29,321 nt of DNA from a virus. The DNA lies in IMG/VR virus record IMGVR_UViG_3300032291_004083, positions 1-29,321 of that record; one strand, 5' to 3'. The notes beneath the pieces were generated by a model that worked only from the letters and a program-made list of their open reading frames with translations, had not been told where the DNA came from and did no database searches. Positions 4,701 to 24,327 of this stretch are shown here, in pieces. Both the position numbers and the translations under genes were made by a program. Each line of letters opens with the position of its first letter. Position 1 is the first letter of the stretch.

Positions 4701-7700
4701 GCCCACATGCTCTGCAAATGTGAAAATTTCGCTGACTCCGGCCCCACCTGCCAGGTTATCCGCTGATTTCGCATCTGCCTCGGAAGTGTATAGAGGATAG
4801 AAATATCCATATTCTCCAGACGTGTCTCCGCTAGCGCTTGTTCCAAGCAAGGCGAATGGACCAACGCTTGTTGTGGTGCCCCCAACTAGTCTGACCGTTG
4901 GAGCAGTGTCGTAACCACTGCCACCATTTGTCACTGTGATAGTGTTCACATATTTCTTATGATTGTCTCTCCAGAAGCGATAAGGATACTTTGACAATGT
5001 TGTAGTGTCAGTTATGGTGTTGATGTTTCTAATTCGTTCTCCATCATAGAAAGCGGGAAGATCAAAATCCGTATAGATTCCATCCTGCGTCTCGGTGCCT
5101 GTGTAACCTAATTTGTACTCTCTTATCTTTGTGTGGAAGGGCTTGACTTCGTTGATATAACTCTCCACGTAATCATCTGTGCCTATCTTGTATGTTTTTC
5201 TTTGATCCAACGGTCTCACACTATTTGTCACGTTGATAAATGAAGTTTTAAATAACCAGTCGACATAAAGCTGCTCTTCCAAAACTCTTCGCAGACCTAT
5301 AAAAAATAAATTATTGTATTCTACCTTTAAATCTCCAACAAATATGTCGTCTCTTAAAGCAGTCAGTATCTTTTTTGTTTCAAGAGTTGGTTGTTGATCA
5401 AAAAAGTTATTATCAAACGGATCCCCATCTTCGAAGCCCACGTTGTTGATATCGTAGTTGTAAAGTGCATTGCTCAGTTGAATGGTGCCGTTCTGTGTGG
5501 CGCAATTTTTAAATCCATCTGCTGTTTTTAAGAATATCTTCCAGCCGCCTGTGTCTGAATTTAAAACTTTTACATATTTGCCTGCGTCTAGATCTCTCAG
5601 TGTGTCTAGCTGGTATTGGAAGCTCAGCTGGCGATCAATAATAACATCACTGTCTATTCCTGTGTCATACCAATCCACGAAACTGTAATAATTGTTTGTT
5701 TTGTAGGTCTGTACTTTAAATCTGTTCCATTCGGTCCCATTCCAGTTGTATATGGCCCAGTAACCTTTGCTGTTTTGCTCATCTGCTCTGACCAATGCAT
5801 TGACTGATCCGCTGATATCATTTGTATTGATAAAAATTAGATCAGCATAGGTATCAACTAAGATGTCCCATTCTCCAGAGGTCTGCAGCGGCTCGGGATC
5901 AGCAGAATTAAGGTTAATAAAATTTACACTGTAGGCCAGTTGATACTTACGGAGAACGGTGTTGCTGTAGTTTATGATATCTTTAAGTGCGGCGAACCTG
6001 TCCTTGTACCAACTCTGCCTTGGTCTGATATTGTTGCCGTAGCGTTGATTAAGAGGCAATGTGAGATCAGGGACCTCGCCGCCTATATCATCCTCCCCTA
6101 TAAGGCTGTCCCACCATTTCTTTTCAACGTTCTCATTGGGCCTATCGTCCTTGTCGCCTTCTTTAAATATTTTCCAAACTGTGTGGACATCTGATTCGTT
6201 CTCGTTTTCTCTGTAATTTATGTTTAGCACTGTGTTCCGATTGACCAAGCTATCTCTCACATTGAAAGTGATGATAGAATTTCTATCTGATATCGTGAAA
6301 TATTTCACCCCACTTCCTAGAGGATTGATGATAATGTTGGCAATGTATGCAGTTGTATTTTTCCTTTCAGTGACCGAGACGTTTTTTGCTGGCAAGAATA
6401 CTGAATTCTTTACCCAAAAATAATAATGGTTTAGGAAACTGTCCGAGTTGGCGTCATATTTTTGTTTCACCGTAAGAACAGTGTTATCCGCATGCAGAGG
6501 AGTACCCGAGATTCTCCTCGACAATCCTTCTGTGGTGTCGGCTCTTGCAGCCCACTCCGACGGCAGGAAAGTTGATTCAACCCATTCGTAAATGTTTATG
6601 TTTGAGCCTGGAAATAAATTGCCCCAATTTTTAGTTTTGTGTTCTTGTCCCGCTTGCTCATACCATACCCATCTAGCCTGGCTTAGGTCCCACCAAACCT
6701 CTCCAACATGCTCCTCGCCCCAGGCAGTGTTGGTGCTAACAGTTTTACCCACTGTGCCAACAGTATAGATAGCTGGATCCCATTCGGTTTTATAATTTAT
6801 TTCTCTATCGGCTAATCCCAATATCCTGCCTTTTATCGGATCATAATAATCTAAATAATCTATAATTTCATTTTTAGCTGTGTCAAATATAAAAGCAGAT
6901 TCAATCTTGCTGCTGTCTACAAGTTCTTCTTCCGTAACTTGGGACTGCCATGCATATTGACCAGGTGTCTTAAGGTCATATAAGGCCACAGATCCATTAT
7001 TGGTGCCAAGTGTTGATCCATCATTCTGTAAAAGAGAATCGCCGGGTGCTCCAACATAGACAGCAGTATCAGTGACGCATACTCCTTTTCCAAAATCGTC
7101 GTTGGTGCTGACACGATCAGTAATCAATTTCTGATCTATCACAAACTTGTTGTTGTATTTGGTGGCCGTAAAAGCTCCACCCGATCCTATGTTTAGGTCC
7201 ACTATCCTAGTGTCTTGCAGATCCAGGGTGGTAGATCCGTTATCAAATTTCATCACTCTCTCGTTGCTGAAATTTTCCGCTCCTATCACTAATCTATTAG
7301 CAGAATGATTTATACTCAACGATGAACCAAATCGCATGTTGGTTTTAGTTTCTGGAGCCGGTATGGTCTGCTGTAATGTGTAAGTGTTTGTGGAGGCATC
7401 CGCGTTCCATTTGTAACAATACACTGCTCCCGCATCGTCCTGCGAGTTGCTGTCAACTCCGGAAGCTGACACAATAAGGGTGGTGCCATCCTTGCTCATT
7501 GCTATGCTGTCTCCAAAATTTAATTCATTAGAACTGCCGTCTGCGCTGACGCCAACCAATGTCTGTCTATGTGTGAATATCAGTGTTGTGCTGCCATCAT
7601 TATATTGATGATTACTTGTGAATATTTCAACTTTGCCCGAATTGCCCGGGCTCACTGAGCTTATTGCTAATATATCTCCATTGTCATTCACAGCTATCCT

Positions 7701-10700
7701 ATGACCAAATCTCTTGCCGGTGCCAGGCTCACTGCTTTGAATCGACGATGTCTGTGTCCATTGGGAATAGGTGCTATCGTTTGCCAGTCCCCAGGTGTAC
7801 ACGTAAACTATTCCATTCTCGTTGCTGTATCCTGGTGCCCCAACAAAAAGATATTTTGGTAATGTACTTCTCATGCTGCTCACCGTTGGCTCTGCCACCG
7901 CGGTTGACCAACCAAAGTTTAGGTTGTCTAATATGGTGCTGCTGTCAGACGGTGGGACTAAAGTATTAAGAGAATCATAATTTTTGCTGAAGTTGTTCCA
8001 GATGTAGGTCTTTATCAGTCCAGCATTCTGATGCCTGGAACTGTCGCTGCCTGGCACAATTGTGTTATTGTACGGAGCTCCAGCTACTACTATATTTTCA
8101 TCTGTGCTGATTGATAAACTTTCTCCCAATCTAGAAGTATAATCATCGTTGTCGGTCATTGACACACTGGCCACTATGTCATACGTGGTGCCGGCACTGT
8201 TTTTGGAGCGACGAAAGAAATGTATGGTTCCTTGCTCCATGCCTGGGGCAGACACTATCAAAAACTTACCATCGTTGCGACTCACTATCCTATAACCAAA
8301 CTCCTGATTATTGGGCGTGTCTGGTGCCGGCAGTGACACAGTTACGTATGGATCTACTTTTTCATAAATCTTCCATTTGTTTCCTACGTTGTCCACAAAC
8401 ACCTTGTCACCTGGCACATCGTTGTTTCTTTCTCGGTACCCCTTGTAGGAGATAGCGTCATTGACATTGTCCATTGACGACAACCTCACAGATACAAAAT
8501 TATAGAGATTTCCATAGCTGTCTTGCGTTGATCCGTCAACGCCTATGCCATTACGTGTGATAGTGTTGGCCTGGTCAAAAGCTATCACGATGCTTTTATT
8601 GGTGGGAGTCAACTGCACCCTGTACACGCCATTTAAGTTTCTGAATTGGCTGTTAGATATGCCAATGTAGTCTCCAACCACAAGAGAGTGTACTGATGTT
8701 AGACTAATTATTATACCTCTGAAATTATTAATTGCTGATATGGCAATTATTTTAGATCCTGTGAAAGTTAATCTTTTGACATCCCAGTCATTGTTGGATT
8801 TTTTAGCGATCCATACCAAATCATCCTGTTGTATCAGGTTCATGTCGAGATTTAAAAGATCCTGTTCATTGAACACCGTATGCTGTACATCTAGCAGTCT
8901 AGGATACCCAGCCGTTCGGAATTTTTGAATAACATCTCTATCCACTCCCTCTAGAGAGTAATCATATTTGTTAAAGGTTTGGGCGGCCGTATATTCAAGT
9001 GGAGTTTGATACATTTCACTTTTCCGTACAGCCACTGACTTGACCCAATTCACATCATCCGCGTCACTGTCCAGCAGTTCAATGCTTTGTATATTGTTAA
9101 CAAAAACGTCGTCCGGCATTCGTATCTGTATGGCATTCTTGCCTTGTATGTTGCCGAACTCTCCAACTTTGATCATCCATTCGGGATAAATGTTCAGAGA
9201 GATGTTCTCATCCAGGAACTTTGCCTTAAGCAGCTTGTCAATGGCGTTTTGCGTACCTTTCTCTCTTATAAATCCCTGATAGAACTTGTACTGGCTAACA
9301 TCGTTCAAGAATAAATTTTCTAAATAATCTCTACTCTGGTATCCCGTAAGATGCTGAGCTAATTTTTGTTGACCCTCATCAAAATTATCACTCTCCAGGT
9401 CATAAAAATCATTAAATTGTGATATCTTGTAATCAAAATTAGGTATTAATTGAGAAACTGGCTTTTCATTTTTGCTTTGCCAATACTCGCCATTGAAAAC
9501 ATTACCTGAATTATGATTTGTTTTGGCCACATAAAATTTTGCGTTGTATTCTACTGTACTACCAATCTGATAATCCGTATTGGCTGTCCATGCATTGATC
9601 TTTGCTTCATCAAACATAAATCCGGGAGAGTAGTAATCTCCGTTCCAATCTCCAGTCTTCCATCCAATCAGCTTGAGCCTCTCTTGTCGGAACCCGGTGG
9701 CCAATTGTAATATAATATCCGAAAAAACAGTCACATTGTCGAAAAGAAGCACATGTTCTTTTTGGACGGCATTCATGGTGACGTGATAAATCCCTATCTC
9801 TGTATTTTTGCTCACTATCTCAAATGTGCTGCCAATCCTCTTGGTGCTTATTGATTGAGTGTTAATAGTCTTGCCTGCGGAATCTAGCACAGTGTACTCG
9901 CCTTGCAGATTTTGTAATTTACCGATCACGCTGTCCACGGTGTTGAGACTGAATCCTTCTGCACCTGGACTGAGGGTGATTGCCGACCCGGGAGCCCATC
10001 CTTGACGAGTCCAATATAAGAACTCCTTTGCCGACATTACCCAATCCATGGTCTCTCCCAATTCATTGCTGAATCTTTCAAATACGAATCCTCGAGATTC
10101 CAAATATTTTCCGTATCCTATTAAAAAGTTTACTAATGATTGCGGGTCTCTGAATACAGTACCATATGGTACTATTTTTACACTGGTTGACCAGTCTTTG
10201 TAAACTACAGCCGTGCCACTGCCGACTTCTAGTGTGTAACTATTATTGTTTTGCAAAGGCTCAAATATCTTGAAGTAAGGTTTGATTGTGTTGTATCCAA
10301 TAATCTTGTATCCACCTTCGAGGGTGCTGCCATCATTTGCTACTGCACTGTTGAGCTCAACAAGCACGCCCGAATAATCAAACGTGTCCACAGGATTACT
10401 TGATCTAAATAATATTTTATAATTCTCGTCAGGTATGAACTGCGATCCGGCTGTTGATCCGGGACTGACACTGTCTGTCAAAATCTTTAAATTTTGTTTG
10501 TCTGTAAATCCTCCCAGTTTGTAAGCGAGCTGCACATTGAGATTTTTCATTTTGTCATAAAAATTTGGTGCCGGGTCAAGATTATTTTTAATAATATAAT
10601 TGACCACAAATGGTTGGTATCCTGCGGTCATGTATCTAGTAATCACTCCAGTGGTGGAATCAGTGGCTGTCTCCAAATGATATTTTGCGTTGCGCAGAGT

Positions 10701-13700
10701 CTGGGCAACACGTGTAACGCTATCTATTACGTTCCCGGCTGGATTAGTAGACAACCTGCTGTTGTCAAAAAAAGTTCCAAAAAACTTGGCCGGCCTGGTC
10801 AATGCCAACAACTTCATAATGGTGTATGGATATTGTGAACTTTTGCGCCATGCCGTTTCAACTGGTGATTGGTCTCCAAATTTCCAAGGAGCATCTACCC
10901 CTCTCTTTTCATATTGAGCGACAAGTCCAATGGCCAATGGTGATTTCAAATTTCCATTCACATCCACGGGCAGATAATTTAGGAGGTTTGGCCTGATGTA
11001 TCTTTTGATGCTTTTATGCAGTCCGTGATCAAACCCTGCTGCTAGATCATTCCATAACAGTTCGTTTCCAGAACTATATGGCGCAGGACCATAATGCTCT
11101 GCCCACCAAGTAGGTTGTTGACTGTAACCAAGCATTTCCCATGGGTGGGTGTGTGGACGATCGGTGTCATAGAAATAGTTGTAAATGCCTCTCCAGTGCC
11201 CAGGAAGATATTCTTGTTTCACTGCATCTTTGTTCCTTGCATAGTTGTATGTGAATTCGTTGCCCGCGGCATAGATATCATTATATTGATAATCTAAACT
11301 ATTTCTGCCTGTCCAGGTATAAAAATCATAGCTCAATATATTGTCGATTTCAGATAATTTATATTCACCCTGAACAAAAACTGATGGTTTAACCTCGTTC
11401 AGTGTCAACAAGTCCGGATTATATTGCGTCTTGCAATTATTATAAATTCTCTTTTCCAGCTCCATGAGTAGGTCGTCTCTGTAATCACCATAGGCCACGG
11501 TGCGACTTCCGTCGTGTCCTATAATGAGTTGAGTGGGTGTGACATATGTTGTGTCAGTCACTATCTCTGGCTTGTATTTTGGATAAAGTCCTAACTTGGT
11601 TGGGGTGGGCGGAACAAAACTTCCTGTGGTATTGTCATAATCCTTGATAGTGATAATGTCTCCTTCGGCAAGGACACAAGTTATCTCAACGCTATCATCA
11701 ACTGTGCTGAAGGTATAATCTAATCCTAATATTAATATCACATCATTAAGATAGACATACACTGCCCTGTTGCTCACTGCCGTAGTATCAAATTGTGAAT
11801 CAATTGCAAATTGGGTTTGAGTCACATCCTGAACCGTATAGTTTCGAGTGGTGGCCCTTTCTCCATATCCTATCATGTCCTCATAAAAGAATGGGAAAGA
11901 TGATGTTCTTTCGCCTGTCATATTTTTAATGATGGTGTCAACCTTGCTTGCTACTGTGCCCTCCCTTGCTAAATCACTAGCCTGTGATAAAAAGTTTTCT
12001 TTAAATTTTTGATATTCAAGAGAACAGTAATCAATTGCAGATATGGCGTTTGCATTTTGATCAATTAACAAGAACATAGCCGGTGGCAATGCTGCTGAAT
12101 GTTGTAATATAGTACCGCCCTGTAATCTTACGTCGGGTATGTCTCGCAGGTTGCTGTTTCCTGGCGTGCTTCCAACTAGTGTCTCATTCTTTTCATTTAT
12201 ATCATGCACATGGTTCAACACCTGTCCAAATGTGAATTCCGATATCTGTTCATTTAAAGGATTTGTTGAAAGATTCTCCGGGATTTCATACAATCCTTTA
12301 TTCTCTAGTTTCTTCTCGCTTGAAAAACATTGTATCTTGACTAGGTCATTTATGGATAAATTTTTTGAGAAGATTACAAATTTATTTGTAGTACCGTTGA
12401 CCAAGGTATAATCAGTGCCAAGGCTTTGGGCCTGGTCATTGACATCCACGTGTATCTGTAAATCTTGAATACTAGAACTATTATTATAAACGTCAATGGG
12501 GAATCTTTTTAATTCACTGCTGTCTACAGTAAAAGTCCTTATCACTCTTTGTTTGCTGAGCTCGTTTCTTTTCACCCATGATGTCTTGAATTGCACTGCG
12601 ACATTATTCTTATTACTATATGCAACCTGTGCCGTGGAAAAATTTTTCTTTACAAACTGTTCTCCACTTTTGTAGTTGAAAGATCCAGAAGATATGTCAG
12701 TTGTGAATACCATGTTTCCAACGTTGTTTATGGAACTATATTTGACTTTTAGGCCCAGCACGGTGTCAGTAGTTGCAGCGTCAGACACTTGATATGCAAA
12801 TACCTTAGCTCCATTGAAAGTAGAATTTGGATATGCAATTGAGTCGTTGAGAGGGATTGAGTTGTCATCATATAAGTTGAATAAAGGTTGTTGATTTAAT
12901 TTTGTTTTTTGCTGTCCGATCATCCAAGATGATTGTGCAGAGTCATAGAAAAAAGTTTTTCCTTGGTTAATTGTGCCTAATTCAACAAAAACAGATTCCC
13001 CATCCTGTGGCCCAGCAAGGTTATCGGAGGCAAGAGTCAGTGATATCACGGATTGATTGCCTATCTGAACAAAATTTACTGTGTAGATCTTGTTGTTTGC
13101 CCGTGGGTCTCGGTCATTGGTCAGCAATATCCTCATGCCATTCGCGAGTGCTACACCATCAACAATGTATCCGGTTTGTCTTACCATTGAAGAGAATGCG
13201 TCTGTGGTGGATGCGTCTATCAATGTAACAGATCTCTTAACAGTGATTCCGTGCTCATACAATCTTAATCCAGAATCAAATTCTATAATGGGTCTTTTCG
13301 CCCTGTCTGACTCCAAAAGATTTGGAGTGTGCCCATTTGCCGCGGCAGTTGCATCTATTACTGCCCTGTGGAACCATCTGTTGTATCTACTCCAAGCATT
13401 GCCATCGATGCTGTCTCTCTTAATGGTTATATAATCTGGTGTCTCTGGCCTGTAAAAACTAATGGCGTAGGGCCTGGTATCATACTGTACAGTGTCATAA
13501 AGTTCAGTGCTCTCAGTTGCATACGATTCAGGCGTGATCAGGGTTGACGAATCCGTAAGTGTGATTGATTGTCCTACTCCTTCAACATAAAATTCTTTGT
13601 TCCTGTATGTGTCGCTAATAACATTGTCTCCAAACCTTAATTTCATACCATTGCTTAAATGTACGCCAGATCCTGTGACGTAGTTTTTTGATCCCACTAT

Positions 13701-14600
13701 TTCATGCTCTGGATTTATTTTAGTAGTCGATGAAATTGTTTTTACAATAAAAATTCCCTGCATTGCTTGGTGATTGCCGCATTGATAGTACAACACATCT
13801 GGAGCGGCGGAGGGCACTGTAAAAGTTAACGTGCCTAAACTGGCTCCATTGTTGGTTACCCCGCTGCTGTAAATGACTGATGTGCTTCCATCCTCTGCAA
13901 ATCCTGTCTTGAATGGCTCGGTCATGATGTAAAACGGATGGCCGGCAGCATCAATAATAAATTTATATGTGTTGCCTCTGTATAGAGTTATAGATGGATT
14001 ATTTCCGGCATGCGTGCTGAATTGATATGCCGCTTGTCCTTGTGCCAACACTTTAATTTCCTGCGATGAATTTGGTCCATTGTTCGATATCAGTATAGGA
14101 TTCGGACCTTCGGGTAACCAATAATATTCTCTATAATTTATAAGTTTGTCAAAATCTACCGCGGGGTTCCAATTGTAAACCTCTTCCTTGTTCAACCTGT
14201 CGTGGTTATCTACATTGCCTCCAAAAAACTTAATCTGATTTATGTAGTCATCATACGTCGCAGTAAACTTTACCTGATCCTCTGGATTGATTGAAGAAGT
14301 GTCTTTGTCGGTGTAAGTTACCGCTGGCTCAAGTTGATAGTCATCTCTATCTTTGCTTGCACTTGTGATGTACTTGTCGGTGGGTTTCCTGGTGTAGGCA
14401 TATGTTCTTCCGATGTAACCGTCCAACCTAGTGAGGCTGCCTGGCTGTATCAATTGATCTAGTGTGCTGGTCAAAAATCTATGATTAGTATCGGTGCGAT
14501 AAAAAGATGGTAGATGTGCTATAGATCTCCTTAATATCGTGCCATTCTCATTCACGATCTCTTCGGAGTTAGTCTTGCTATTGATTGGCGAATCTACCAT
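1704..14600 (-). CDS. Giant modular baseplate/tail structural protein, 4298 aa
   Basis: A single uninterrupted frame of 12.9 kb directly follows gp6, in the slot held by gp7-gp10 in T4; it may be the counterpart of the large gp7-type wedge protein of marine relatives, but the sequence alone does not prove this. Modules in order: a baseplate-type N-terminus (about 1-190, with LPSFYRTDTNHRFL and YNWNPAVDFDKLINYREYYW); a cupredoxin domain (about 190-290, His221, Cys274, His277, Met280); two related segments with LSNGM and LANGM (about 317 and 485); a chitin-binding-like module (about 1668-1715); seven FG-GAP propeller blades (about 2090-2550); two GSGY-type segments (about 3222 and 3353); a second chitin-binding-like stretch (about 3405-3445); and a C-terminal array of GDGST beta modules (about 3520-4265). 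It starts two bases after the gp6 stop, with AGGA eight bases upstream inside the last gp6 codons. No signal peptide or membrane segment is evident. It is probably a wedge-attached fibre or scaffold bearing several binding modules. Confidence 0.85.
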   Translation of the reverse strand: MVDSPINSKTNSEEIVNENGTILRRSIAHLPSFYRTDTNHRFLTSTLDQLIQPGSLTRLDGYIGRTYAYTRKPTDKYITSASKDRDDYQLEPAVTYTDKDTSSINPEDQVKFTATYDDYINQIKFFGGNVDNHDRLNKEEVYNWNPAVDFDKLINYREYYWLPEGPNPILISNNGPNSSQEIKVLAQGQAAYQFSTHAGNNPSITLYRGNTYKFIIDAAGHPFYIMTEPFKTGFAEDGSTSVIYSSGVTNNGASLGTLTFTVPSAAPDVLYYQCGNHQAMQGIFIVKTISSTTKINPEHEIVGSKNYVTGSGVHLSNGMKLRFGDNVISDTYRNKEFYVEGVGQSITLTDSSTLITPESYATESTELYDTVQYDTRPYAISFYRPETPDYITIKRDSIDGNAWSRYNRWFHRAVIDATAAANGHTPNLLESDRAKRPIIEFDSGLRLYEHGITVKRSVTLIDASTTDAFSSMVRQTGYIVDGVALANGMRILLTNDRDPRANNKIYTVNFVQIGNQSVISLTLASDNLAGPQDGESVFVELGTINQGKTFFYDSAQSSWMIGQQKTKLNQQPLFNLYDDNSIPLNDSIAYPNSTFNGAKVFAYQVSDAATTDTVLGLKVKYSSINNVGNMVFTTDISSGSFNYKSGEQFVKKNFSTAQVAYSNKNNVAVQFKTSWVKRNELSKQRVIRTFTVDSSELKRFPIDVYNNSSSIQDLQIHVDVNDQAQSLGTDYTLVNGTTNKFVIFSKNLSINDLVKIQCFSSEKKLENKGLYEIPENLSTNPLNEQISEFTFGQVLNHVHDINEKNETLVGSTPGNSNLRDIPDVRLQGGTILQHSAALPPAMFLLIDQNANAISAIDYCSLEYQKFKENFLSQASDLAREGTVASKVDTIIKNMTGERTSSFPFFYEDMIGYGERATTRNYTVQDVTQTQFAIDSQFDTTAVSNRAVYVYLNDVILILGLDYTFSTVDDSVEITCVLAEGDIITIKDYDNTTGSFVPPTPTKLGLYPKYKPEIVTDTTYVTPTQLIIGHDGSRTVAYGDYRDDLLMELEKRIYNNCKTQYNPDLLTLNEVKPSVFVQGEYKLSEIDNILSYDFYTWTGRNSLDYQYNDIYAAGNEFTYNYARNKDAVKQEYLPGHWRGIYNYFYDTDRPHTHPWEMLGYSQQPTWWAEHYGPAPYSSGNELLWNDLAAGFDHGLHKSIKRYIRPNLLNYLPVDVNGNLKSPLAIGLVAQYEKRGVDAPWKFGDQSPVETAWRKSSQYPYTIMKLLALTRPAKFFGTFFDNSRLSTNPAGNVIDSVTRVAQTLRNAKYHLETATDSTTGVITRYMTAGYQPFVVNYIIKNNLDPAPNFYDKMKNLNVQLAYKLGGFTDKQNLKILTDSVSPGSTAGSQFIPDENYKILFRSSNPVDTFDYSGVLVELNSAVANDGSTLEGGYKIIGYNTIKPYFKIFEPLQNNNSYTLEVGSGTAVVYKDWSTSVKIVPYGTVFRDPQSLVNFLIGYGKYLESRGFVFERFSNELGETMDWVMSAKEFLYWTRQGWAPGSAITLSPGAEGFSLNTVDSVIGKLQNLQGEYTVLDSAGKTINTQSISTKRIGSTFEIVSKNTEIGIYHVTMNAVQKEHVLLFDNVTVFSDIILQLATGFRQERLKLIGWKTGDWNGDYYSPGFMFDEAKINAWTANTDYQIGSTVEYNAKFYVAKTNHNSGNVFNGEYWQSKNEKPVSQLIPNFDYKISQFNDFYDLESDNFDEGQQKLAQHLTGYQSRDYLENLFLNDVSQYKFYQGFIREKGTQNAIDKLLKAKFLDENISLNIYPEWMIKVGEFGNIQGKNAIQIRMPDDVFVNNIQSIELLDSDADDVNWVKSVAVRKSEMYQTPLEYTAAQTFNKYDYSLEGVDRDVIQKFRTAGYPRLLDVQHTVFNEQDLLNLDMNLIQQDDLVWIAKKSNNDWDVKRLTFTGSKIIAISAINNFRGIIISLTSVHSLVVGDYIGISNSQFRNLNGVYRVQLTPTNKSIVIAFDQANTITRNGIGVDGSTQDSYGNLYNFVSVRLSSMDNVNDAISYKGYRERNNDVPGDKVFVDNVGNKWKIYEKVDPYVTVSLPAPDTPNNQEFGYRIVSRNDGKFLIVSAPGMEQGTIHFFRRSKNSAGTTYDIVASVSMTDNDDYTSRLGESLSISTDENIVVAGAPYNNTIVPGSDSSRHQNAGLIKTYIWNNFSKNYDSLNTLVPPSDSSTILDNLNFGWSTAVAEPTVSSMRSTLPKYLFVGAPGYSNENGIVYVYTWGLANDSTYSQWTQTSSIQSSEPGTGKRFGHRIAVNDNGDILAISSVSPGNSGKVEIFTSNHQYNDGSTTLIFTHRQTLVGVSADGSSNELNFGDSIAMSKDGTTLIVSASGVDSNSQDDAGAVYCYKWNADASTNTYTLQQTIPAPETKTNMRFGSSLSINHSANRLVIGAENFSNERVMKFDNGSTTLDLQDTRIVDLNIGSGGAFTATKYNNKFVIDQKLITDRVSTNDDFGKGVCVTDTAVYVGAPGDSLLQNDGSTLGTNNGSVALYDLKTPGQYAWQSQVTEEELVDSSKIESAFIFDTAKNEIIDYLDYYDPIKGRILGLADREINYKTEWDPAIYTVGTVGKTVSTNTAWGEEHVGEVWWDLSQARWVWYEQAGQEHKTKNWGNLFPGSNINIYEWVESTFLPSEWAARADTTEGLSRRISGTPLHADNTVLTVKQKYDANSDSFLNHYYFWVKNSVFLPAKNVSVTERKNTTAYIANIIINPLGSGVKYFTISDRNSIITFNVRDSLVNRNTVLNINYRENENESDVHTVWKIFKEGDKDDRPNENVEKKWWDSLIGEDDIGGEVPDLTLPLNQRYGNNIRPRQSWYKDRFAALKDIINYSNTVLRKYQLAYSVNFINLNSADPEPLQTSGEWDILVDTYADLIFINTNDISGSVNALVRADEQNSKGYWAIYNWNGTEWNRFKVQTYKTNNYYSFVDWYDTGIDSDVIIDRQLSFQYQLDTLRDLDAGKYVKVLNSDTGGWKIFLKTADGFKNCATQNGTIQLSNALYNYDINNVGFEDGDPFDNNFFDQQPTLETKKILTALRDDIFVGDLKVEYNNLFFIGLRRVLEEQLYVDWLFKTSFINVTNSVRPLDQRKTYKIGTDDYVESYINEVKPFHTKIREYKLGYTGTETQDGIYTDFDLPAFYDGERIRNINTITDTTTLSKYPYRFWRDNHKKYVNTITVTNGGSGYDTAPTVRLVGGTTTSVGPFALLGTSASGDTSGEYGYFYPLYTSEADAKSADNLAGGAGVSEIFTFAEHVGTEFYMPLMDQNIAIADRPVGYVLYSEAGNTQATAIADIRNGSVSRITVLTTGSNYTATPTVVLIGGGADGTTPADTAKAYANLQNDLVRDVSTIIKFDRVKSTATILEWTESTAYAYNDLLRRGNNFYKVITGFTSTADFNDGLDNLLKLRGDEPYITAAERTLGLYSPATGMPGNELSQLMTGVDYGGVMVTGLAFNSSQGWDRSLWYEAPWDNYGLSRVQTFYGDGSSTAFTFSSAPLATDVYTVYVNGVRQTSLVFRGDGSTKTFTVIPDDSSVVGNGDKIEFIPFDDDGVLTPTDDRTLDTLISGGLFGSAVGIAPSDVILEGDGFITPDTSYAPEENVPGSMFDTVDIKVYTAPESGVPFIINKNYTGDGTTKVFDIGQTPGTQASVIVTLDGLTLESEDAGDSTATTHVVDITNQTVTFTAAPSAGQKISIKSFAISGKNYMVLDTFTGDGSTVSFTTSARESFQLDSAISQLYVTVDGVPTNNYTYAVADKLVTITFHTGDGSTANPPASGKSIQIAAFNQPAASGRAHAEIRSEQFTYDGSTNRITLTYPPGAIGPFSGLTMLQLGGKILRGPDNTYYAGDGSTTTYGLGTDPANTVTDASQIEVYVNGTKNDLFTDYTVNIGSQQVIFVSAPGSLDVIAVSVLLNNHYYNTGDDIILKPSQLAADGIALTAGTEFFATTFNNAVGMNQRREIFQGNGSGEFTLQETPLNSNYVFVWLNGTALTHGYNFLTGANYFSNPRTLKISGVTLTSSDRIDVMYFAVEGAGNAIGFRIFKDMLNRNFFKRISAQGTTKLAEAVTPTSASITLADASRVASPPGGSVPGVLFIGEERIEYFIKVGNTLSQLRRATLGTALQNHASGAQVVDASASQTVPYAETIYAKTTTTDGSTSTFPTSLAPATPYELDVFVGGRRLPYVSDDGSTLNFTIDGSTANITLAQMPVAEIEVKVVQKRGRVWYTAGASTAANGKGLQKSTTNQARFLSGEPTNAPE
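1880..4040 (-). repeat. Protein-level array of degenerate GDGST beta modules
   Basis: Within the C-terminal part of the giant gene, a motif of the form (F/Y)xGDGSTxxF, usually followed by a YVNG- or VTLDG-like turn, recurs with irregular spacing. Visible copies are near 4030 (GDGSSTAFTF), 3926 (GDGSTKTFTV), 3590 (GDGTTKVFDI), 3345 (GDGSTVSFTT), 3190 (GDGSTANPP), 3070 (YDGSTNRITL), 2950 (GDGSTTTYGL), 2600 (GNGSGEFTL), 2015 (TDGSTSTFP) and 1930-1885 (DDGSTLNF, then IDGSTANI). Codons differ between copies, so this is an old or selected protein repeat and not a fresh DNA duplication. Similar GDGST-F motifs are common in phage tail and fibre proteins. Confidence 0.7.
4275..4390 (-). other. Second chitin-binding-like (CBM5/12-type) segment in the giant protein
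   Basis: Around residues 3405-3445 the giant protein reads EWTESTAYAYNDLLRRGNNF followed by YKV. This follows the pattern W-x(5)-Y-x(3)-D-x(3)-R/Y-x(2)-N/K-x-Y-K/V that is typical of small chitin-binding modules. It is a weaker match than the copy near residue 1670, and the substrate, if any, is unknown. Confidence 0.35.
6960..8330 (-). repeat. Seven-bladed FG-GAP/integrin-like propeller in the giant protein
   Basis: Seven consecutive segments (about residues 2090-2550) share an (F/L)G-x(4)-(I/V) start followed by a hydrophobic (V/I)(V/S/G)(G/S)A strand. Starts read EFGYRIV, RLGESLS, NFGWSTA, RFGHRIA, NFGDSIA, RFGSSLS and DFGKGVC; matching strands include LIVSAPG, IVVAGAP, LFVGAPG, LIVSASG and VYVGAPG. 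This is the signature of FG-GAP repeats, which fold as a seven-bladed beta-propeller in integrin alpha chains and bacterial surface proteins. Several blades carry Asp/Asn-rich loops (for example NDNGD, SKDGT) that could bind calcium. Confidence 0.7.
9450..9605 (-). other. Chitin-binding-like (CBM5/12-type) module in the giant protein
   Basis: Residues about 1668-1715 contain Trp1671, then TANTDYQIGSTVEYNAKFY and an EYW near the end. This aromatic pattern (W near the start, a GxxVxYxxxxY core, a closing YW) matches the small carbohydrate-binding modules of families 5 and 12 found on chitinases. In a phage tail protein it would suggest binding to a surface glycan. Function is inferred. Confidence 0.5.
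13731..14033 (-). other. Cupredoxin (type-1 copper) domain in the giant protein
   Basis: Residues about 190-290 read as a plastocyanin/amicyanin-like domain. A beta strand with LYRGNTYKFII leads into GHPFYI (His221), and the far end reads YYQCGNHQAMQGIFIV (Cys274, His277, Met280). The Cys-x2-His-x2-Met spacing is that of the amicyanin copper loop, with the first His about 50 residues upstream, so all four ligands of a blue copper centre seem to be present. Copper binding is inferred from motif only. Confidence 0.7.
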
Positions 14601-14602
14601 GG

Positions 14603-17600
14603 CTAATATCCTGTGCCACTGCTACCACTGCTGCCTGAACTTCCACTTGAACCACTGCTGCCACTGGAGCTTGATGTGTAACTGGTTGTAGAACTCGAAC
14701 CAATCGTGGATGATACTGCAGACGTTGACCTGTTGCTGGTTGTTGTGCCTGTGGTGCTGGTCACAACTTGTCCACTGGCAGCAAGTTGATTGGCGCCTAT
14801 GGCATCAATTATTACTACATTATCAACTGTGGCCCCACTGATAAAAATCTCATCTGCGGCGCTGCTTATCTGAAATAGAGATCCAAAAACCTGTTCAGTT
14901 TGGTTTGGCACGATCACCACAGTAAGAAGATCCGGAGCCAGTTGTGAATGTATGTAAGCAGCTAGTTCTGTAAAGTAAAAAGTGTCACCAAAATCAAAAT
15001 TGTTTAGGGCAAAAAATTCATTTATTGCACGAATCACTCTCGTCTTTATCAATGCATTGGTCACATTGGTGGATGAATTTTTTACTACCTTGAAAGTGGC
15101 CTGGAACTCCTCATCCGCTTGATTGCCGAAAAGTATTTTATATTTCACAGGATGGTATATGATCTGATCCGACAAACCTTTTAAAGGATTCAACACGCCA
15201 GAATATGATATCCTCAGCTGGTCGGCAGTGGACGGTATTGGCTCGTCTCCGCCCTGGCTCAACCATGTTCTGTACAACTGATCATATGATCGTTCAAGCA
15301 TGTAGATATCCATTATATTAGTTTGCGAAGGATCTATCCTGACTTCTTGCCCTGCAAAGTGCTTGTATTGGAATTCCAGTGAGCCTCTGCCTACCCTTGC
15401 ATAATAATCGGTAGATGTTTGCAAGACTCCCAAGTCTGTGTTGTAAATTTTTATGACATCTTCCGATGTATCATAAAAATAAAATAGTTGTCCGTTGGCA
15501 TAGCTGCCGGGAAGCACTATGGTGCTTTCATTTTGTGTCACTATGAAATTGCTTGCGGGATAAGGCCTGTATCTTTCTATGTTGTCATAACTGACATATT
15601 TTTGGAAAAATACGTATTTGGTGCTGACGTTTAAGTTTGGTTCAACAATTATATCAAAGATATCTGGATTGTCCACTACGCCATCGTCGTCATCGTCAAA
15701 AAAACCTACCTTTACCTTTCTATTATCTTGATATCCATCCGTCTCCTGAACGGTATCCACTACTTGCCACTCTATCGGATAACCCACAGACGATCCGGTG
15801 CTGGGCACCGTGTTGCTTTTTAAAATTTTTACACTGTCTTTGACTGATTTGCCTGTAGTGTAATCGTAAATTCTTTCAGTTTTATCAAAATGGAATTTAT
15901 TTTCGCCTGCCGATTCATAAATGTAATCTATTTTCCGGTAAGTGACTGTGTACGTGTTTCCATCATTGGTGAATTTGAACCACCAGCTTGCGTCAAGGTT
16001 GGTTGATGTGGCGTCGCCGGCGTAATCCAATTCAAATGTTGACGACGTGCTTAGATTTGCTGCTGTGATTATTTTCCAGCTTGCGTCTTCTTCATCGTAT
16101 CTTAGTGCAAATTCCTCAAAAGTTTCTATCCTGTCCTGCAGATCTGTTTTCAATGACGAATCAAATACCGTAGAAAATTTAGGAAACACCGCATTCAGCA
16201 GCGCTCCCGCTGGAATAATGTCATTGATTGTTATAGGTCCCGCCCCTGACTCTAAGTTGCCTGCTCCCCCATTAGCTCCATCGCCGACCACACCTGAGAT
16301 CTTGGCCCATTGCCTGTCCTCTGCAAGATCCGTGCCTAGCGTAACAAGTTTTCCATTTAAGAACTTCCTGGTGTCGGGTGACGTAAATTTAATCAATGCT
16401 CCAGGCACAACATATTTTAGATTGCTGGTGGCAAAATCTCCCACAACCAAAGGACCTGCTGCCTGGAAGTAACCAGTGTTGGTGTTGGTGCCCACAGATG
16501 TGCTGAACCAGCTGGCAGCCAATGTGGATAAATTTTTTGTGCCATATTTTACGTAGAAAAATTGACGTGAATACGCCTCATTTAATTTTAGCTCCACTTG
16601 TCTATTAATTGTGTCCAATATCTCATTTCTATTAGTGAAAGTGAAAGTGAACTGAGGTGTGCTTTCCTCCCTATACAATATGCCGTCATCGGCAAATACA
16701 GACACGTTGCTGTAAGAACCTGTTGGATCTATGATCTCCTTCGCTCTACTGATGCCGCTGGCGCTCCTATTCACTGCTTTGACTTTGATGATTTCCTGAG
16801 ATGCTGACAATGGCACCACGTTGTAGTCCTCTGCTGTTATCATTCTATTTTGCGAATAATAAACCTGGGGGGCTTTTGTCCTAATACTTTCATTGCTTTC
16901 GGTGGCCGCTGAGTTGTATACACTCTGTTGCAATGATGCCACTACTGTGAGAGTCTGAAGCGATCCATTTGCATCTTGATACTGCATGTTAAATTGTATG
17001 TTTTGCATATCCGCAGGCTGTATAGAATATTTTGCGTTATCGCTGACCCTGTAATAGGCCCTGAATGTTCCCGATGGTACATTTGCAAAGTTTCCATCTC
17101 CGAACACAAGATCTATGGCGTCGTTGTTTTTAGTGACGACATTGTATATGTCTCTCACTCCAGCAGACAGTGAGTTGTAAATTGTGTTATTGCCTACAAG
17201 ATCCGGAACTCTGGTCCAGAGTTTCTCTATCTGTCCAAAGTCATCAAGCTCGTAAAGCCATACGTCGTCGTTGTTAATGTTGTTTATTGCTAAACTTTTC
17301 ACATAATTGGTTGTGGGTTGATCAATAGAAAATATGTTGCTGGCCAAAGATCCTTGTTTGAATAAAAAGAAAAATCCTGTGTTGGGACTAGAATCACCAG
17401 CTCCATCTGTCCTATAGGTATATGTCATGCCTCCTCCGGTAATTGGAGCCAGCTCATATATAGATTCAGAATTAGATATAGTGCATGGACACACCTCAAA
17501 ATTTCTAGTTATGCCACTAATGTTTTTTGAAAATTGGAACATTGGTATGTCAACATTGGTGGTATTGATTGTGTACACCTCTGTCTTGATTCCACCTATC

Positions 17601-18133
17601 CTATTTGCCTCGAGGGGCTTGCCAAATCTCTGTGTATCAGGATTGGCTGCGTTCAGTATGTTGATTATCTGCTCTCTGTAATTTCCATTGGTACTATCAT
17701 TCCATAGTATAGTTGAATTGCTTAAATTGGTGCCGGAGCTGTCATTGACATTCTGCGTTGTTCGCAGCGACACTAATTTCAGCAGTCCAGTGGCAGACTT
17801 GTTTCTCTTGGCATTGTAATTGATCAGTCTGGCCAGTCGCAATATTGAGTCTCTTCTGCTGGCAGTTTCAATAAAATTTTCTCGTGCATTCAGATCCACC
17901 CTGAAGCTTAGTGACTGAGCGACGTAGGCTATAAGATCTATTAGAGCCACATATTCCGAAGACTCCACAAAATCATTGAAGTCATCTGGATAATTCTCCC
18001 TAAGATATGCAACCATAGTACGCCGCAGCGTTTCGAAGTCGTAGGATTTGAAATCTGCCTGTTGGAAAGCAGTGTATATCTTACGCCAATCCTCGGCTAC
18101 AAGCAAGCGATTTTGTCTATCTGTAGAGGCCAT
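14603..18133 (-). CDS. 6: Baseplate wedge protein gp6-like, 1176 aa
   Basis: gp6 is the core wedge subunit of contractile-tail baseplates and belongs to the Baseplate_J-type family. The N-terminal 130 residues match this family, with EYVALIDLIAYVAQSLSFRV followed by the arginine-rich RRDSILRLARLINYNAKRN. The C-terminal part (about 985-1110: LKGLSDQIIYHPVKYKILFG, then RVIRAINEFFALNNFDFGDT) resembles the dimerisation domain. At 1176 residues it is much longer than T4 gp6 (660), so the middle holds extra beta-rich insertions. The extreme C-terminus is a Ser/Gly tail built of SSG triplets. An exact late promoter, TATAAATA, lies 26-33 bases upstream of the ATG, with no good Shine-Dalgarno site. 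The stop codon lies two bases before the start of the giant gene. Confidence 0.88.
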   Translation of the reverse strand: MASTDRQNRLLVAEDWRKIYTAFQQADFKSYDFETLRRTMVAYLRENYPDDFNDFVESSEYVALIDLIAYVAQSLSFRVDLNARENFIETASRRDSILRLARLINYNAKRNKSATGLLKLVSLRTTQNVNDSSGTNLSNSTILWNDSTNGNYREQIINILNAANPDTQRFGKPLEANRIGGIKTEVYTINTTNVDIPMFQFSKNISGITRNFEVCPCTISNSESIYELAPITGGGMTYTYRTDGAGDSSPNTGFFFLFKQGSLASNIFSIDQPTTNYVKSLAINNINNDDVWLYELDDFGQIEKLWTRVPDLVGNNTIYNSLSAGVRDIYNVVTKNNDAIDLVFGDGNFANVPSGTFRAYYRVSDNAKYSIQPADMQNIQFNMQYQDANGSLQTLTVVASLQQSVYNSAATESNESIRTKAPQVYYSQNRMITAEDYNVVPLSASQEIIKVKAVNRSASGISRAKEIIDPTGSYSNVSVFADDGILYREESTPQFTFTFTNRNEILDTINRQVELKLNEAYSRQFFYVKYGTKNLSTLAASWFSTSVGTNTNTGYFQAAGPLVVGDFATSNLKYVVPGALIKFTSPDTRKFLNGKLVTLGTDLAEDRQWAKISGVVGDGANGGAGNLESGAGPITINDIIPAGALLNAVFPKFSTVFDSSLKTDLQDRIETFEEFALRYDEEDASWKIITAANLSTSSTFELDYAGDATSTNLDASWWFKFTNDGNTYTVTYRKIDYIYESAGENKFHFDKTERIYDYTTGKSVKDSVKILKSNTVPSTGSSVGYPIEWQVVDTVQETDGYQDNRKVKVGFFDDDDDGVVDNPDIFDIIVEPNLNVSTKYVFFQKYVSYDNIERYRPYPASNFIVTQNESTIVLPGSYANGQLFYFYDTSEDVIKIYNTDLGVLQTSTDYYARVGRGSLEFQYKHFAGQEVRIDPSQTNIMDIYMLERSYDQLYRTWLSQGGDEPIPSTADQLRISYSGVLNPLKGLSDQIIYHPVKYKILFGNQADEEFQATFKVVKNSSTNVTNALIKTRVIRAINEFFALNNFDFGDTFYFTELAAYIHSQLAPDLLTVVIVPNQTEQVFGSLFQISSAADEIFISGATVDNVVIIDAIGANQLAASGQVVTSTTGTTTSNRSTSAVSSTIGSSSTTSYTSSSSGSSGSSGSSGSSGSSGTGY
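14615..14674 (-). repeat. SSG codon-triplet repeat at the gp6 C-terminus
   Basis: Six consecutive Gly-Ser-Ser units end in GTGY just before the stop. Third positions and serine codon choices vary (AGC, AGT, TCA) but a 9-base AGT-GGC-AGC pattern repeats, suggesting slippage growth. It is a flexible low-complexity tail, and its last codons also hold the ribosome site of the giant gene. Confidence 0.75.
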
Positions 18134-18186: not shown

Positions 18187-18594
18187 TTAAGAAAGGCGCA
18201 AAGCAGCGTTTTCGTCAAAACTGAATATCAATTTCTCTGTAATGTTGTAAGGCACATATTCTATGGTGGCCTGCACGGATATGCCATGCTCCGTCTCGCT
18301 GACTATGATTTCCTTGGTGCTGAGCCTGGGATCCGCGTTGAGATTTTCAGAAATGTCGTCAGCAACCGCTTGTTTCACTGCATCAGTCATGGGCTCAAAT
18401 ATTAGCCCGTAAATTATTGTGCCAAATTCGGGATTTTCTACCCTTTCTCCCTTGCGCACACTTAATCTATTGATCAAATCTTGTTTGATCAATTCAAAAT
18501 CATACAGCTTGAAGTTGGTGTTGCTTGATCGGGAACTGAATCCCTTGAACACCTGTGTTTTATTTGCACTTGAATTTTTATCTACATATGCCAT
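18187..18594 (-). CDS. 25: Baseplate wedge protein gp25-like, 135 aa
   Basis: gp25 belongs to the conserved gpW/gp25 family, which is lysozyme-like in name only and joins the baseplate wedge to the sheath. The length (135) is close to T4 gp25 (132). The recognisable core is LYDFELIKQDLINRLSVRKG followed by RVENPEFGTIIYGLIFEPM. The Arg-Gly-Glu-Arg and EFG residues are the family hallmark, and an acidic helix and a closing beta strand follow. It starts 13 bases after the gp5 stop codon; the TAGGAAA around that stop forms a reasonable ribosome site, so translation is probably coupled to gp5. Confidence 0.92.
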   Translation of the reverse strand: MAYVDKNSSANKTQVFKGFSSRSSNTNFKLYDFELIKQDLINRLSVRKGERVENPEFGTIIYGLIFEPMTDAVKQAVADDISENLNADPRLSTKEIIVSETEHGISVQATIEYVPYNITEKLIFSFDENAALRLS

Positions 18595-18607: not shown

Positions 18608-21016
18608 CTAAAATCGAAATCCAAAAACACTGCCAATGTTAGAGGCTATGCTTGCTATTTCTGAGCCAATCGCACTACCAAAATCCGTCACCAGACTACT
18701 TATCTCAGTCACTGAAGTGATGTCGGATCCCATCACTGACTTGTAGATGCTGTTGACCATGTTGACTGTGCCTAGGGCCTGATTGACTGCACCGAATCCA
18801 GGTATCTGTGCTGCGAACTGTCCCAATCCTGGTATCTGGCCTATTCCTGGTATCTGTCCAATGCCCGAAAAAATGCCTTCCACGTTTGACGATCCAGCTT
18901 TGAATATATCACCAAAAATATTTTCTCCTGTGAACGGACCGGGTCCTGCGATGAATGCGTTGGCAATACCAACCTGGCCTAGATCATCTATGCCTTCAAC
19001 TCCAAATAATCTATCTTTGGCTTGACCAAATGCGCCCAACACACTGCCGGAGGTGGACACAATGTCTTTCACTGTGCTCAGTGCGCCGGTGGTAAAATTC
19101 AGTGGTGATGATATGGCCTTGGCCAAATTGCCTGTTGTGTATAGGAGTCCTCCTTGATCTATGAAAAGTGTTTTGCCCAAGACATCCTGTACGCCTCCGG
19201 TCAAGGCATTCACTGTCTGTTGAATAGTGCTGCTGACTCCTTCCGCTATGGCAGAGATATTGAACGGACCACCATCAGGCAAATTGTAGAGTTTGGTGTA
19301 ATTGTTGGCGATCTCATTGCAGACCTTTTGAATAGTTTGTATGTCTCCTATGGGCTGCTTGACAACATTTGAGACTTTGTTGACTGCTGATTGCAACTGC
19401 CCCAATCCTCGTTTTTCACATTCATGCTGCATGTCGGCCGCGAGCTGCATGAATCTCCTACTTGGATTATCACTCAATCTATTTCTCTGAGCTATAAATT
19501 CGGCAGTACCAGGCACGTTGCTCAAAGGACCAGGGCTGGTGCCCTTGAAGCTCACAACTTTGTCAAAATGGAATGGGAACGGCTCATGTGTACAGATCCG
19601 CATGCCCGACATAGTGATGTTGGCATTTTGGTCAACCTTGATAGGACCATAGGTATACTTGTTGGATGGATTGACATCTGGTATTCCTTCTCTCTTGGTT
19701 CCTGTGCCTGAGGGATCTTGCGCGATGGTCCTTTCGTACGTGGCTATAATGTTGGGACTGGTAGCTATGCTGTTGAAGTGCACCTGCTTGCCAGTTATGT
19801 GTGTCTGCCCGGTGGCCATGTGTAATTGGGTCTCTGCCGCATATGAAACTATCGAGCCTTCCGGCGCCTTGGTGGTGATGCTGCCGAACCTGGCCTGTGT
19901 CTGCACATCATAGTCGGCATATGTTTGCACCGCACCACCGTCAATGACTAATTTTCCCACGCTGCTTAATTTGATCTGCTTCCTGGCGAACATGTTGATG
20001 TTGGTGTCACTGTGGAAGTTCATGTCACCCCTGGATCTTATGTTCACGCCTCCACCGGCGTATATGTCGATAGATCCGTTGGCACTGAACTCCATCCAGA
20101 CGTTTCCTGATCCATTGGCTAGATATACCACTCCCTTGGTGTCATGTAACAATAATTGGTGACCCGAGGCAGATCTTAATCTTATAAGTTGGTTGTCACC
20201 GATGTTGTCACCATCGTCCATGACAAAAGTGTGGCCGGACAATCTGTCAATAATTTCTTCGTGCTTCGAATTGGCAACGCCCACGTTCCTGGGTGAAGAA
20301 CTGGTATCTCTACGTCCTGGCGTGCTGATCCCAAATACATTGCTTGGACTTTCTCTTCGGGCAGAGGACGTGGTAGTGCCTCTCACATCATCTTGTATCA
20401 ATCCCTGCTGCCTAAGCGTTTCTGCAAACGGATGTATGGGCTTCTTTAAAACAGGATCCACTTTATTTCCGCCTATGGAATCCAACGTTGCCCTGTTGAT
20501 CTCTCCCGCGGGTAGAATTTCTGTGCCATACATGGTTTGTTTGCTATCAACTTCTGACCCGGTGTCACTTAATCCTGTCCTGTCAGTGGCCGCTATTCCT
20601 GGCACCATGTGATTGGCTAGTGGCTCCTGTATGCAGCCTATCCAGAATGCCTGATCTGCTTTTCCCTTTGCAAAAATCACCAAGACCTTTGTGTCTATGT
20701 CTGGGGGTACCATCCACATTCCGTATGAATGTTGTGATGCCTTGTAGTTGTAGGGATCGCTCTCTCCCAAATATCTTGCTGTCTTTGCGCCATAGAAAGG
20801 CGAAAGGTATTCGCAAGTGACTAATTTTCCTGTGGATGATCCCCCGTACCCCGCCAGTGATTCTATGTAAACTCCCAGCCTGCCCATACGCAATGGATCC
20901 TGGTTTGATTTTACCACTCCTACATAGGGACCTGGATCGACTACGCCAAAACTTGTGTCTTCTATAGGAAGTCCCGGTGTGGCCGCATCTCCTCCAAGGT
21001 GTGTTTTTAAACTCAT
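18608..21016 (-). CDS. 5: Baseplate hub spike protein gp5-like, no lysozyme domain, 802 aa
   Basis: gp5 forms the central membrane-piercing spike. An N-terminal OB-fold (about residues 29-150) has YVGVVKSNQDPLRMGRLGVY and a MVPPDIDTKVLVIFAKG strand ending in AFWIGCI. In T4 a lysozyme domain follows; here residues 150-258 form only a polar linker with no catalytic Glu/Asp pattern. The VgrG-like beta-helix runs from about 259 to 416, with short repeats such as SIDIYAGGGVNIRSRGDMNF. A C-terminal extension of about 320 residues, absent from T4 gp5, is rich in Gly, Ala and Ile and contains three tandem GIGQIP-like units near 717-740, then small hydrophobic helices. The ATG at 21016 overlaps the stop of the upstream gene as TAATG. 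Cell-wall degradation must be supplied elsewhere or not be needed. Confidence 0.85.
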   Translation of the reverse strand: MSLKTHLGGDAATPGLPIEDTSFGVVDPGPYVGVVKSNQDPLRMGRLGVYIESLAGYGGSSTGKLVTCEYLSPFYGAKTARYLGESDPYNYKASQHSYGMWMVPPDIDTKVLVIFAKGKADQAFWIGCIQEPLANHMVPGIAATDRTGLSDTGSEVDSKQTMYGTEILPAGEINRATLDSIGGNKVDPVLKKPIHPFAETLRQQGLIQDDVRGTTTSSARRESPSNVFGISTPGRRDTSSSPRNVGVANSKHEEIIDRLSGHTFVMDDGDNIGDNQLIRLRSASGHQLLLHDTKGVVYLANGSGNVWMEFSANGSIDIYAGGGVNIRSRGDMNFHSDTNINMFARKQIKLSSVGKLVIDGGAVQTYADYDVQTQARFGSITTKAPEGSIVSYAAETQLHMATGQTHITGKQVHFNSIATSPNIIATYERTIAQDPSGTGTKREGIPDVNPSNKYTYGPIKVDQNANITMSGMRICTHEPFPFHFDKVVSFKGTSPGPLSNVPGTAEFIAQRNRLSDNPSRRFMQLAADMQHECEKRGLGQLQSAVNKVSNVVKQPIGDIQTIQKVCNEIANNYTKLYNLPDGGPFNISAIAEGVSSTIQQTVNALTGGVQDVLGKTLFIDQGGLLYTTGNLAKAISSPLNFTTGALSTVKDIVSTSGSVLGAFGQAKDRLFGVEGIDDLGQVGIANAFIAGPGPFTGENIFGDIFKAGSSNVEGIFSGIGQIPGIGQIPGLGQFAAQIPGFGAVNQALGTVNMVNSIYKSVMGSDITSVTEISSLVTDFGSAIGSEIASIASNIGSVFGFRF
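18800..18866 (-). repeat. 18-bp tandem repeat encoding GIGQIP units in gp5
   Basis: An 18-base unit containing CCTGGTATCTG on the plus strand is repeated in tandem near 18828 and 18846, with a diverged copy near 18797. In protein it gives GIGQIPGIGQIPGLGQF. It is a short in-frame expansion in the C-terminal extension of the spike protein. Confidence 0.7.
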
Positions 21017-23146: not shown

Positions 23147-23446
23147 TTAAAAACCCAGATCGTTTTTTAGATTGCTTAATTTTGGCAATTGAATTGTTTT
23201 GCCCGGCGAGAAATCATAAATTGGGTCTTCAATAGAGTTGGGATTCCTTTGTGCGAAAACCCACCACAAGCGAGGGGTGCCGTACAAGTCATAGGCCAAA
23301 AGGTCTGGTCTATAAGCATATATCCGGTCTATGGTGTAGGAGACATCATCCTGTTCTGCAGTAATGGTCCTGGGTTGTAGGAGATCAAGGCTGATGTTGT
23401 TCTGCGTGGTGTTAAAATAAGGACTTGTGTTGCTGTAAGTGGCCAT
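23147..23446 (-). CDS. 53: Baseplate wedge protein gp53-like, 99 aa
   Basis: gp53 is a small wedge subunit that helps wedges join around the hub. The 99-residue protein has the family core YRPDLLAYDLYGTPRLWWVF followed by AQRNPNSIEDPI and a C-terminal GKTIQLPKL strand. It is about half the length of T4 gp53 (196) but similar to marine relatives as I recall them. A longer frame opens at 23584, but the start at 23446 is preferred: there ATG shares its A with the stop of the upstream gene (TAATG), and the 46 extra residues are basic, unlike the family, and lie wholly inside that gene. The stop is one base before the next ATG. Confidence 0.82.
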   Translation of the reverse strand: MATYSNTSPYFNTTQNNISLDLLQPRTITAEQDDVSYTIDRIYAYRPDLLAYDLYGTPRLWWVFAQRNPNSIEDPIYDFSPGKTIQLPKLSNLKNDLGF

Positions 23447-24327
23447 TAGATGTAACCTATTCCCCTTTCGCCTTTGCCGTTGAGCCTGCCGTTGACAAAA
23501 TCCTTCATTGAGAATTTCTTCACAGAATCTCTTGAATATATTGGTTGCAATTGCACGCTCACCAAACTCAAAGTTGGAGCCCATGTTTTATTTTCATTGG
23601 TGTTCACAACCACACGTGGATTGATATTGTTCCTGCCTGCGTTGTTCTGCGAAGTACAAATGTAGTCCACGTCTGCTCTAAGGTCTATGTTGAAGTTTGT
23701 GACTACTACTGGCACGTTGTTGAAAACATAATCGCCATACCCTGACAGATGCAATATCGGCGGTGGGTTGCCCTTGAGAGCATCATTCTGATCTCCACCA
23801 AAGAACATCTTGGTTACCGATCTAAAGAAATGCAACATTGCCACCCAGTACCTGGCATCTTCTTCATTTTGCACAGGAAATTCTGCGCTCACTGTGAAAG
23901 ATGGGGCCTCGCTGTGTCCGTATGCATAGTGAGGATAATTGCTGTGTGGCATGTTAAGTGGTGTGTAGCTGGCCGAATGCTGAATGATTATGGCTGGCGT
24001 CAAAGGAAATATCACACCCCCGGCATTGCCTAGTGGTTCCAGTACGCTGTTGGTCGCGCGACCTTCGCCTGAATCGACCGTGGCCTTATAAACTCCAAAA
24101 AAATCGCTCCAGAGATCACTCTTTGGTGGCAAAACTACCTTGACCCTGTAATCTGTCTGCCCGTTCCTAGTGGAAAATCTAGCCGAGGCACGCAATTTGT
24201 CATTGGCTTCTGCGCCCTTGCTCAAGCCCGCGCCAAATAAACGTCCCAGTGTAGGGTTAGTGGAAATTACATTGCCTATCGCACCCACTGTGCCCAGTAC
24301 CTTGCCTGCTGTGTCTAATATTCCCAT
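23446..24327 (-). CDS. 48: Baseplate tail-tube cap protein gp48-like, 293 aa
   Basis: This first gene of the baseplate operon looks like the tail-tube initiator/cap protein (gp48, with gp54 as the alternative assignment) that sits on the hub and starts tube polymerisation. It has a glycine-rich N-terminus (residues 1-40), a tube-like beta core with YRVKVVLPPKSDLW (60-73), and GHSEAPSFTVSAEFPVQNEE (137-156) leading to ARYWVAMLHFFRSVTKMFFG (158-177). The last block is highly recognisable in marine T4-like phages. The start at 24327 has AGGAA five bases upstream and follows an exact late promoter by 60 bases. The stop overlaps the gp53 start as TAATG. The choice between gp48 and gp54 needs a profile search. 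Confidence 0.72.
   Translation of the reverse strand: MGILDTAGKVLGTVGAIGNVISTNPTLGRLFGAGLSKGAEANDKLRASARFSTRNGQTDYRVKVVLPPKSDLWSDFFGVYKATVDSGEGRATNSVLEPLGNAGGVIFPLTPAIIIQHSASYTPLNMPHSNYPHYAYGHSEAPSFTVSAEFPVQNEEDARYWVAMLHFFRSVTKMFFGGDQNDALKGNPPPILHLSGYGDYVFNNVPVVVTNFNIDLRADVDYICTSQNNAGRNNINPRVVVNTNENKTWAPTLSLVSVQLQPIYSRDSVKKFSMKDFVNGRLNGKGERGIGYI

Follow-up and report, generated by a model that had tools for sequence, protein, structure and literature searches.

The stretch of viral DNA analysed here, hereafter the window, comprises 29,321 nucleotides (positions 1 to 29,321 of IMG/VR record IMGVR_UViG_3300032291_004083) and harbors on its minus strand a giant open reading frame (ORF, window 1704-14600) that encodes a virion structural protein of 4298 amino acids. 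Close to the N-terminus of this protein lies a module of predicted cupredoxin fold, located at residues 178-292 (13725..14069, minus strand) and delineated by AlphaFold2, Foldseek and PHROG 677. It contains a complete set of putative copper ligands, all on the minus strand: His221 as the first ligand (13938..13940), Cys274 as the thiolate ligand (13779..13781), His277 as the second His ligand (13770..13772) and Met280 as the axial ligand (13761..13763). In the translation of the giant ORF, His221 is found within GHPFYI, while Cys274, His277 and Met280 are part of YYQCGNHQAMQGIFIV, where the ligand loop reads CGNHQAM, i.e. Cys-x2-His-x2-Met. The initial annotation had placed a cupredoxin domain at residues 190-290, which correctly correspond to 14033-13731; the four residues it named are confirmed in the translation, and the YYQC and GIFIV contexts stand as quoted.

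The AlphaFold2 model of residues 178-292 was built from an alignment of 34 divergent relatives and reaches a predicted local distance difference test (pLDDT) score of 90.3 and a predicted template modelling (pTM) score of 0.83. It displays eight strands, at about residues 179-187, 191-194, 204-207, 211-217, 223-226, 255-261, 269-273 and 281-287 in protein numbering, and presents the layout of a type 1 copper site: His221 just precedes strand 5, Cys274 directly follows strand 7, and the loop that connects strand 7 to strand 8 holds both His277 and Met280. Foldseek comparison with the PDB yielded cupredoxins or copper enzymes with cupredoxin domains in 50 of the 50 matches listed; a pseudoazurin with an engineered amicyanin loop comes first among them, followed by AcoP, rusticyanins, plastocyanins, nitrite reductases and laccases. 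A first model, obtained from a different alignment, led to the same structural families. As judged from these models the domain almost certainly adopts a cupredoxin fold, and both structure prediction and fold comparison thus give the cupredoxin sandwich that the initial annotation had proposed; the site is very likely competent to bind copper. Matches to the module fold in the BFVD search include "beta-sandwich proteins" of Pithovirus and marseillevirus.

Concerning family membership, the module matches the C-terminal region of PHROG 677 (E 1.5e-17); when the domain by itself was searched by sequence against Pfam and the PDB, no cupredoxin was matched significantly. Protein G fusions, the best PDB sequence matches, were rejected, as they were matched via their tag sequence. 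A profile alignment to azurin with a CAAHAAM loop (2xv0) sets the four ligands in register, with a weak E-value of 0.44. Copper-bind PF00127 and Cupredoxin_1 PF13473 do not reach their gathering cut-offs and show marginal matches in a few relatives, and the NCBIfam models for amicyanin, rusticyanin and halocyanin are marginal as well. PF25489 (At5g54830-like) is the nearest Pfam model, with a weak match in 39 of 42 close relatives and 24.3 bits on the window domain, against a cut-off of 27; its search of four genomes returned zero matches, but the controls were also silent. The amicyanin model TIGR02657 does not match the window domain and matches 2 of the 34 relatives (best E 0.062); CGNHQAM has the spacing of the amicyanin loop and the score stays below the family cut-off, so the loop should be considered amicyanin-like and the domain not an amicyanin. 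A CuA domain was rejected on the basis of the single Cys in CGNHQAM, since CuA has two. The order and positions of the ligands, one His and then, within the last loop, Cys followed by His and Met, are those of a type 1 copper site, and we classify the module as a domain of cupredoxin fold whose loop is of the amicyanin type.

The conservation of the four ligands was analyzed in several sets of relatives. Among the 80 closest IMG/VR relatives, obtained through motif-seeded locus searches, 79 retain His, Cys, His and Met, and the remaining one (L047) shows a Gly instead of Cys. Because ligand motifs were among the seeds and could bias this census, it was repeated with a query of 147 amino acids downstream of the domain, in which no motif was used. 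All 80 of the homologues found in this way contain the module, and 77 show the full set. The exceptions are L298, with Asp, Ser, Thr and Met at the ligand positions and hence three ligands lost together, L345, where His221 is replaced by Met, and L300, where Met280 is replaced by Gln, which is the axial residue of stellacyanin and a natural variant of Met. Another relative (L097) likewise lost three ligands jointly. Cys274 and His277, whose persistence in close homologues the initial annotation had made decisive, are therefore retained in nearly all members of both sets. Ligand codons vary synonymously among homologues (CAT/CAC, TGT/TGC), and therefore the constraint acts on the protein.

The wide family comprises 290 distinct copies, of which 232 carry all four ligands; in nearly all of the remaining ones the whole set disappeared together. 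The majority of these block losses sit in one cyanophage protein, encoded by the gene after gp9, and therefore correspond to few independent events; in this gene (e.g. L241, L249) a single protein holds copper-type copies together with ligandless relatives of the module, which constitute natural controls for the role of the metal. A divergent set was also compiled at 60% redundancy, each copy being less than 60% identical to the others. The 25 copies chosen by the presence of Cys have all four ligands without exception, and the 11 Cys-less copies retain none or one. Just five positions are 100% invariant in the 25 copies, and the proposed ligands account for four of the five, an invariance that is independent only for the three non-Cys ligands, Cys being the selection criterion. 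The ligand pattern is not a product of chance. That the ligands are mostly retained or lost as a set speaks for a metal site and not for the needs of the fold, implying selection for the metal site.

As regards the carrier, its four quarters all match PHROG 10938, "virion structural protein", with E-values from 8.8e-17 to 3.9e-159. Directly upstream lies the gene for a gp6-like baseplate wedge subunit (14603..18133, minus strand; PHROG 10646, E 1.2e-290), followed on the same strand by those for a gp25-like baseplate wedge subunit (18187..18594; PHROGs 261 and 43) and a baseplate hub or tail lysozyme-like protein (18608..21016; PHROG 13211, Phage_base_V). No PDB chain was matched by sequence with either the giant or the gp6-like protein. 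PA5oct gp355 and Atu_ph07 gp180 are homologous to the giant protein on both flanks of the module, their genes also adjoin a gp6-like gene, and PA5oct gp355 is annotated as detected in virions by electrospray ionization tandem mass spectrometry (ESI-MS/MS). The baseplate neighbours, PHROG 10938 and this annotation support the earlier assignment of the carrier as a phage baseplate or fibre protein. In PA5oct and Atu_ph07 the module is missing between the matching flanks, and therefore it represents an optional insert; that an ancestral module was lost in both is less likely. The GC content of the module equals that of the giant gene (0.43) and gives no sign of recent transfer.

Other regions of the giant protein also deserve mention. 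FG-GAP repeats (Pfam E 3e-14) occupy residues about 2080-2560 (window about 6900-8400, minus strand), a stretch where the protein is much longer than its PA5oct homologue and which probably represents another inserted module, possibly a propeller. A CBM_5_12 chitin-binding motif is found at residues 1670-1700 (window 9501-9593, minus strand), within a region that aligns with PA5oct as well and for which a close relative carries a chitin-binding annotation. With both elements, the giant protein resembles a scaffold decorated with surface modules. The tetrapeptide DGST appears 13 times (DGS[ST] 15 times), with differing codons, against about 0.3 expected; the jumbo-phage homologues contain none and L082 contains 6. 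Elsewhere in the window, the ORFs at 23147-23584 and 23446-24327 (minus strand) share 139 bases, and the gp53-like gene at this overlap probably starts at an internal Met, as its PHROG match begins near residue 45. The segment 28232-28798 (minus strand) resembles by eye a 2-oxoglutarate/Fe(II) oxygenase, with no supporting Pfam match.

The analysis goes beyond the earlier reading in showing that the module was inserted, that tail proteins of aquatic phages carry it in many mutually unrelated cases, and that bacteria have exported versions of it. Relatives are present in 342-353 of 50,697 phage records, nearly all of them cyanophages, with Synechococcus and Prochlorococcus phages accompanied by a few marine and Pelagibacter phages and one Actinomycetia phage; a second module type, in the gene after gp9, is found in 216 cyanophage records. 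The carriers include gp9 C-termini (tail-fibre connector), collagen-like fibres, podovirus proteins and proximal long tail fibres. Bacterial relatives are exported proteins with the ligands, found in Verrucomicrobiota and other metagenome-assembled genomes (MAGs), and no relative of the bacterial copy was found in the plasmids searched. Among Verrucomicrobiota, 7 of 195 genomes contain relatives, one of which (L355) appears to be a phage contig in a MAG; it encodes a giant-protein homologue in which a cupredoxin copy occupies another position, which suggests that insertion happened repeatedly.

The most likely reading is a surface-exposed, copper-binding tail module which takes part in host contact or makes the tail stiffer; as a whole statement, we give an even chance to the proposal that such a module helps the tail to contact or grip the host. 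The computations show directly how the domain is predicted to fold, that all four ligands are present and conserved as a unit, that the module was inserted, and that it has spread through tail proteins of aquatic phages. The virus would be a T4-like or jumbo-related myovirus of water, whose giant tail protein, the one following gp6, received an optional cupredoxin module with an intact type 1 copper site close to its N-terminus. The site would hold one copper ion, loaded mostly after lysis and outside the cytoplasm, as bacteria keep their cytoplasm almost free of copper. With the module exposed on the tail, its copper-locked, rigid surface may help the tail to hold or touch the host surface, acting as an adhesion module rather than as an electron carrier. 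The proposal is also favoured by the carriers regarded as exposed (gp9 connectors, collagen-like and other tail fibres), by the mosaic partners of the module in the giant protein, CBM_5_12 and FG-GAP, and by the existence of exported bacterial versions.

Several points weigh against this proposal. TM-scores are moderate (0.4-0.57) and the Foldseek root mean square deviations high, the former partly because strands 5 and 6 are joined by a long stretch that is modelled with less certainty, and the Pfam cupredoxin models stay below cut-off. Single-ligand losses exist, of Cys alone in L047 and of His221 alone in L345, which may be sequencing errors. Finally, the surface position and adhesion are read from context, and copper as the bound metal and the function are likewise inferred.

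The strongest rival, to which we assign a real but clearly smaller chance, is that the metal serves folding and stability only, the module being a metal-locked spacer within a long tail protein that does not itself touch the host. Presence in many different tail proteins is typical of spacer domains, and metal-stabilised tail parts are known, since iron is bound by HxH motifs in the T4 gp37 tail fibre and also in Alteromonas phage R22Y (PMC11705849). The ligandless copies cut both ways: they retained the sandwich, as a spacer should, but in doing so they show that it folds without metal, and hence that the fold as such does not depend on the ligands. The joint behaviour of the ligands also bears on whether the site might bind Zn or Fe, or no metal, with the ligands retained for other reasons. 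The environment determines which metal is loaded, and a few single-ligand losses are seen; however, a cupredoxin loop with a single Cys, two His and a Met offers the textbook type 1 copper set, and ligand invariance combined with joint loss is hard to explain without a metal, which renders this reading improbable.

Two further alternatives give copper a more active part, and we hold each of them to be quite improbable. The module could sense redox or copper, being changed by the copper state at the host surface or in the periplasm and helping to trigger tail contraction, or it could pass electrons, as known cupredoxins have their complete type 1 site adjusted to redox chemistry and the carrier gene is located within the baseplate cluster. 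However, neither a redox partner nor a second metal site was recognised beside the module, the jumbo-phage homologues function without it, and ordinary fibres remote from the trigger region carry it too. In analogy to the idea of an iron Trojan horse, published for tail fibres (PMC11705849), bound copper, or likeness to a host cupredoxin, might instead act as a lure that docks the tail on a metal-uptake or cupredoxin-partner protein, and the matches in annotated phage records are indeed almost all from aquatic phages; but there is no known receptor, the module sequences are not close to host plastocyanin, and the module occurs on many tail parts beyond receptor tips. The broader statement that aquatic phages show working blue copper centres on their tails, with copper acting directly in infection through host recognition or a redox trigger, is possible but rather doubtful.

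Blue copper domains are electron carriers and enzyme parts of cells, involved in photosynthesis and respiration. No description of a virion cupredoxin was found in the searched literature, most subscription journals and preprints lying outside the search. Neither Pfam nor PHROGs labels the module as a cupredoxin, and other databases may flag it as cupredoxin superfamily. Here a blue copper domain appears as a reusable virion building block in some of Earth's most abundant phages, where names like "tail fibre connector" or "hypothetical protein" conceal it. Should copper be bound, the tails of phages would be copper carriers in a copper-poor ocean and infection may depend on copper, a trait testable in cultured cyanophages and by an easy optical assay.

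Compared with known systems, the module shares the eight-strand sandwich of amicyanin, pseudoazurin, plastocyanin and rusticyanin, and amicyanin has the same ligand order, His ... Cys-x2-His-x2-Met. Those small blue copper proteins are free electron carriers, whereas the module is part of a 4298-amino-acid virion protein, has a long insert between strands 5 and 6 and falls below family cut-offs in sequence. The founder protein of PF25489 is eukaryotic, and the window module stays below the cut-off of that family. Cyanophage gp9 of PHROG 677, "baseplate wedge tail fiber protein connector", contains the same module with all four ligands, but at the C-terminus of a different protein and without a cupredoxin annotation, whereas the jumbo-phage proteins of PHROG 10938 (PA5oct gp355, Atu_ph07 gp180) are homologous over most of their length and lack the module. 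The HxH motifs of tail fibres (PMC11705849) likewise place a metal on a phage tail protein; there, octahedral iron is held between His pairs of a trimeric fibre, whereas the module presents a cupredoxin site.

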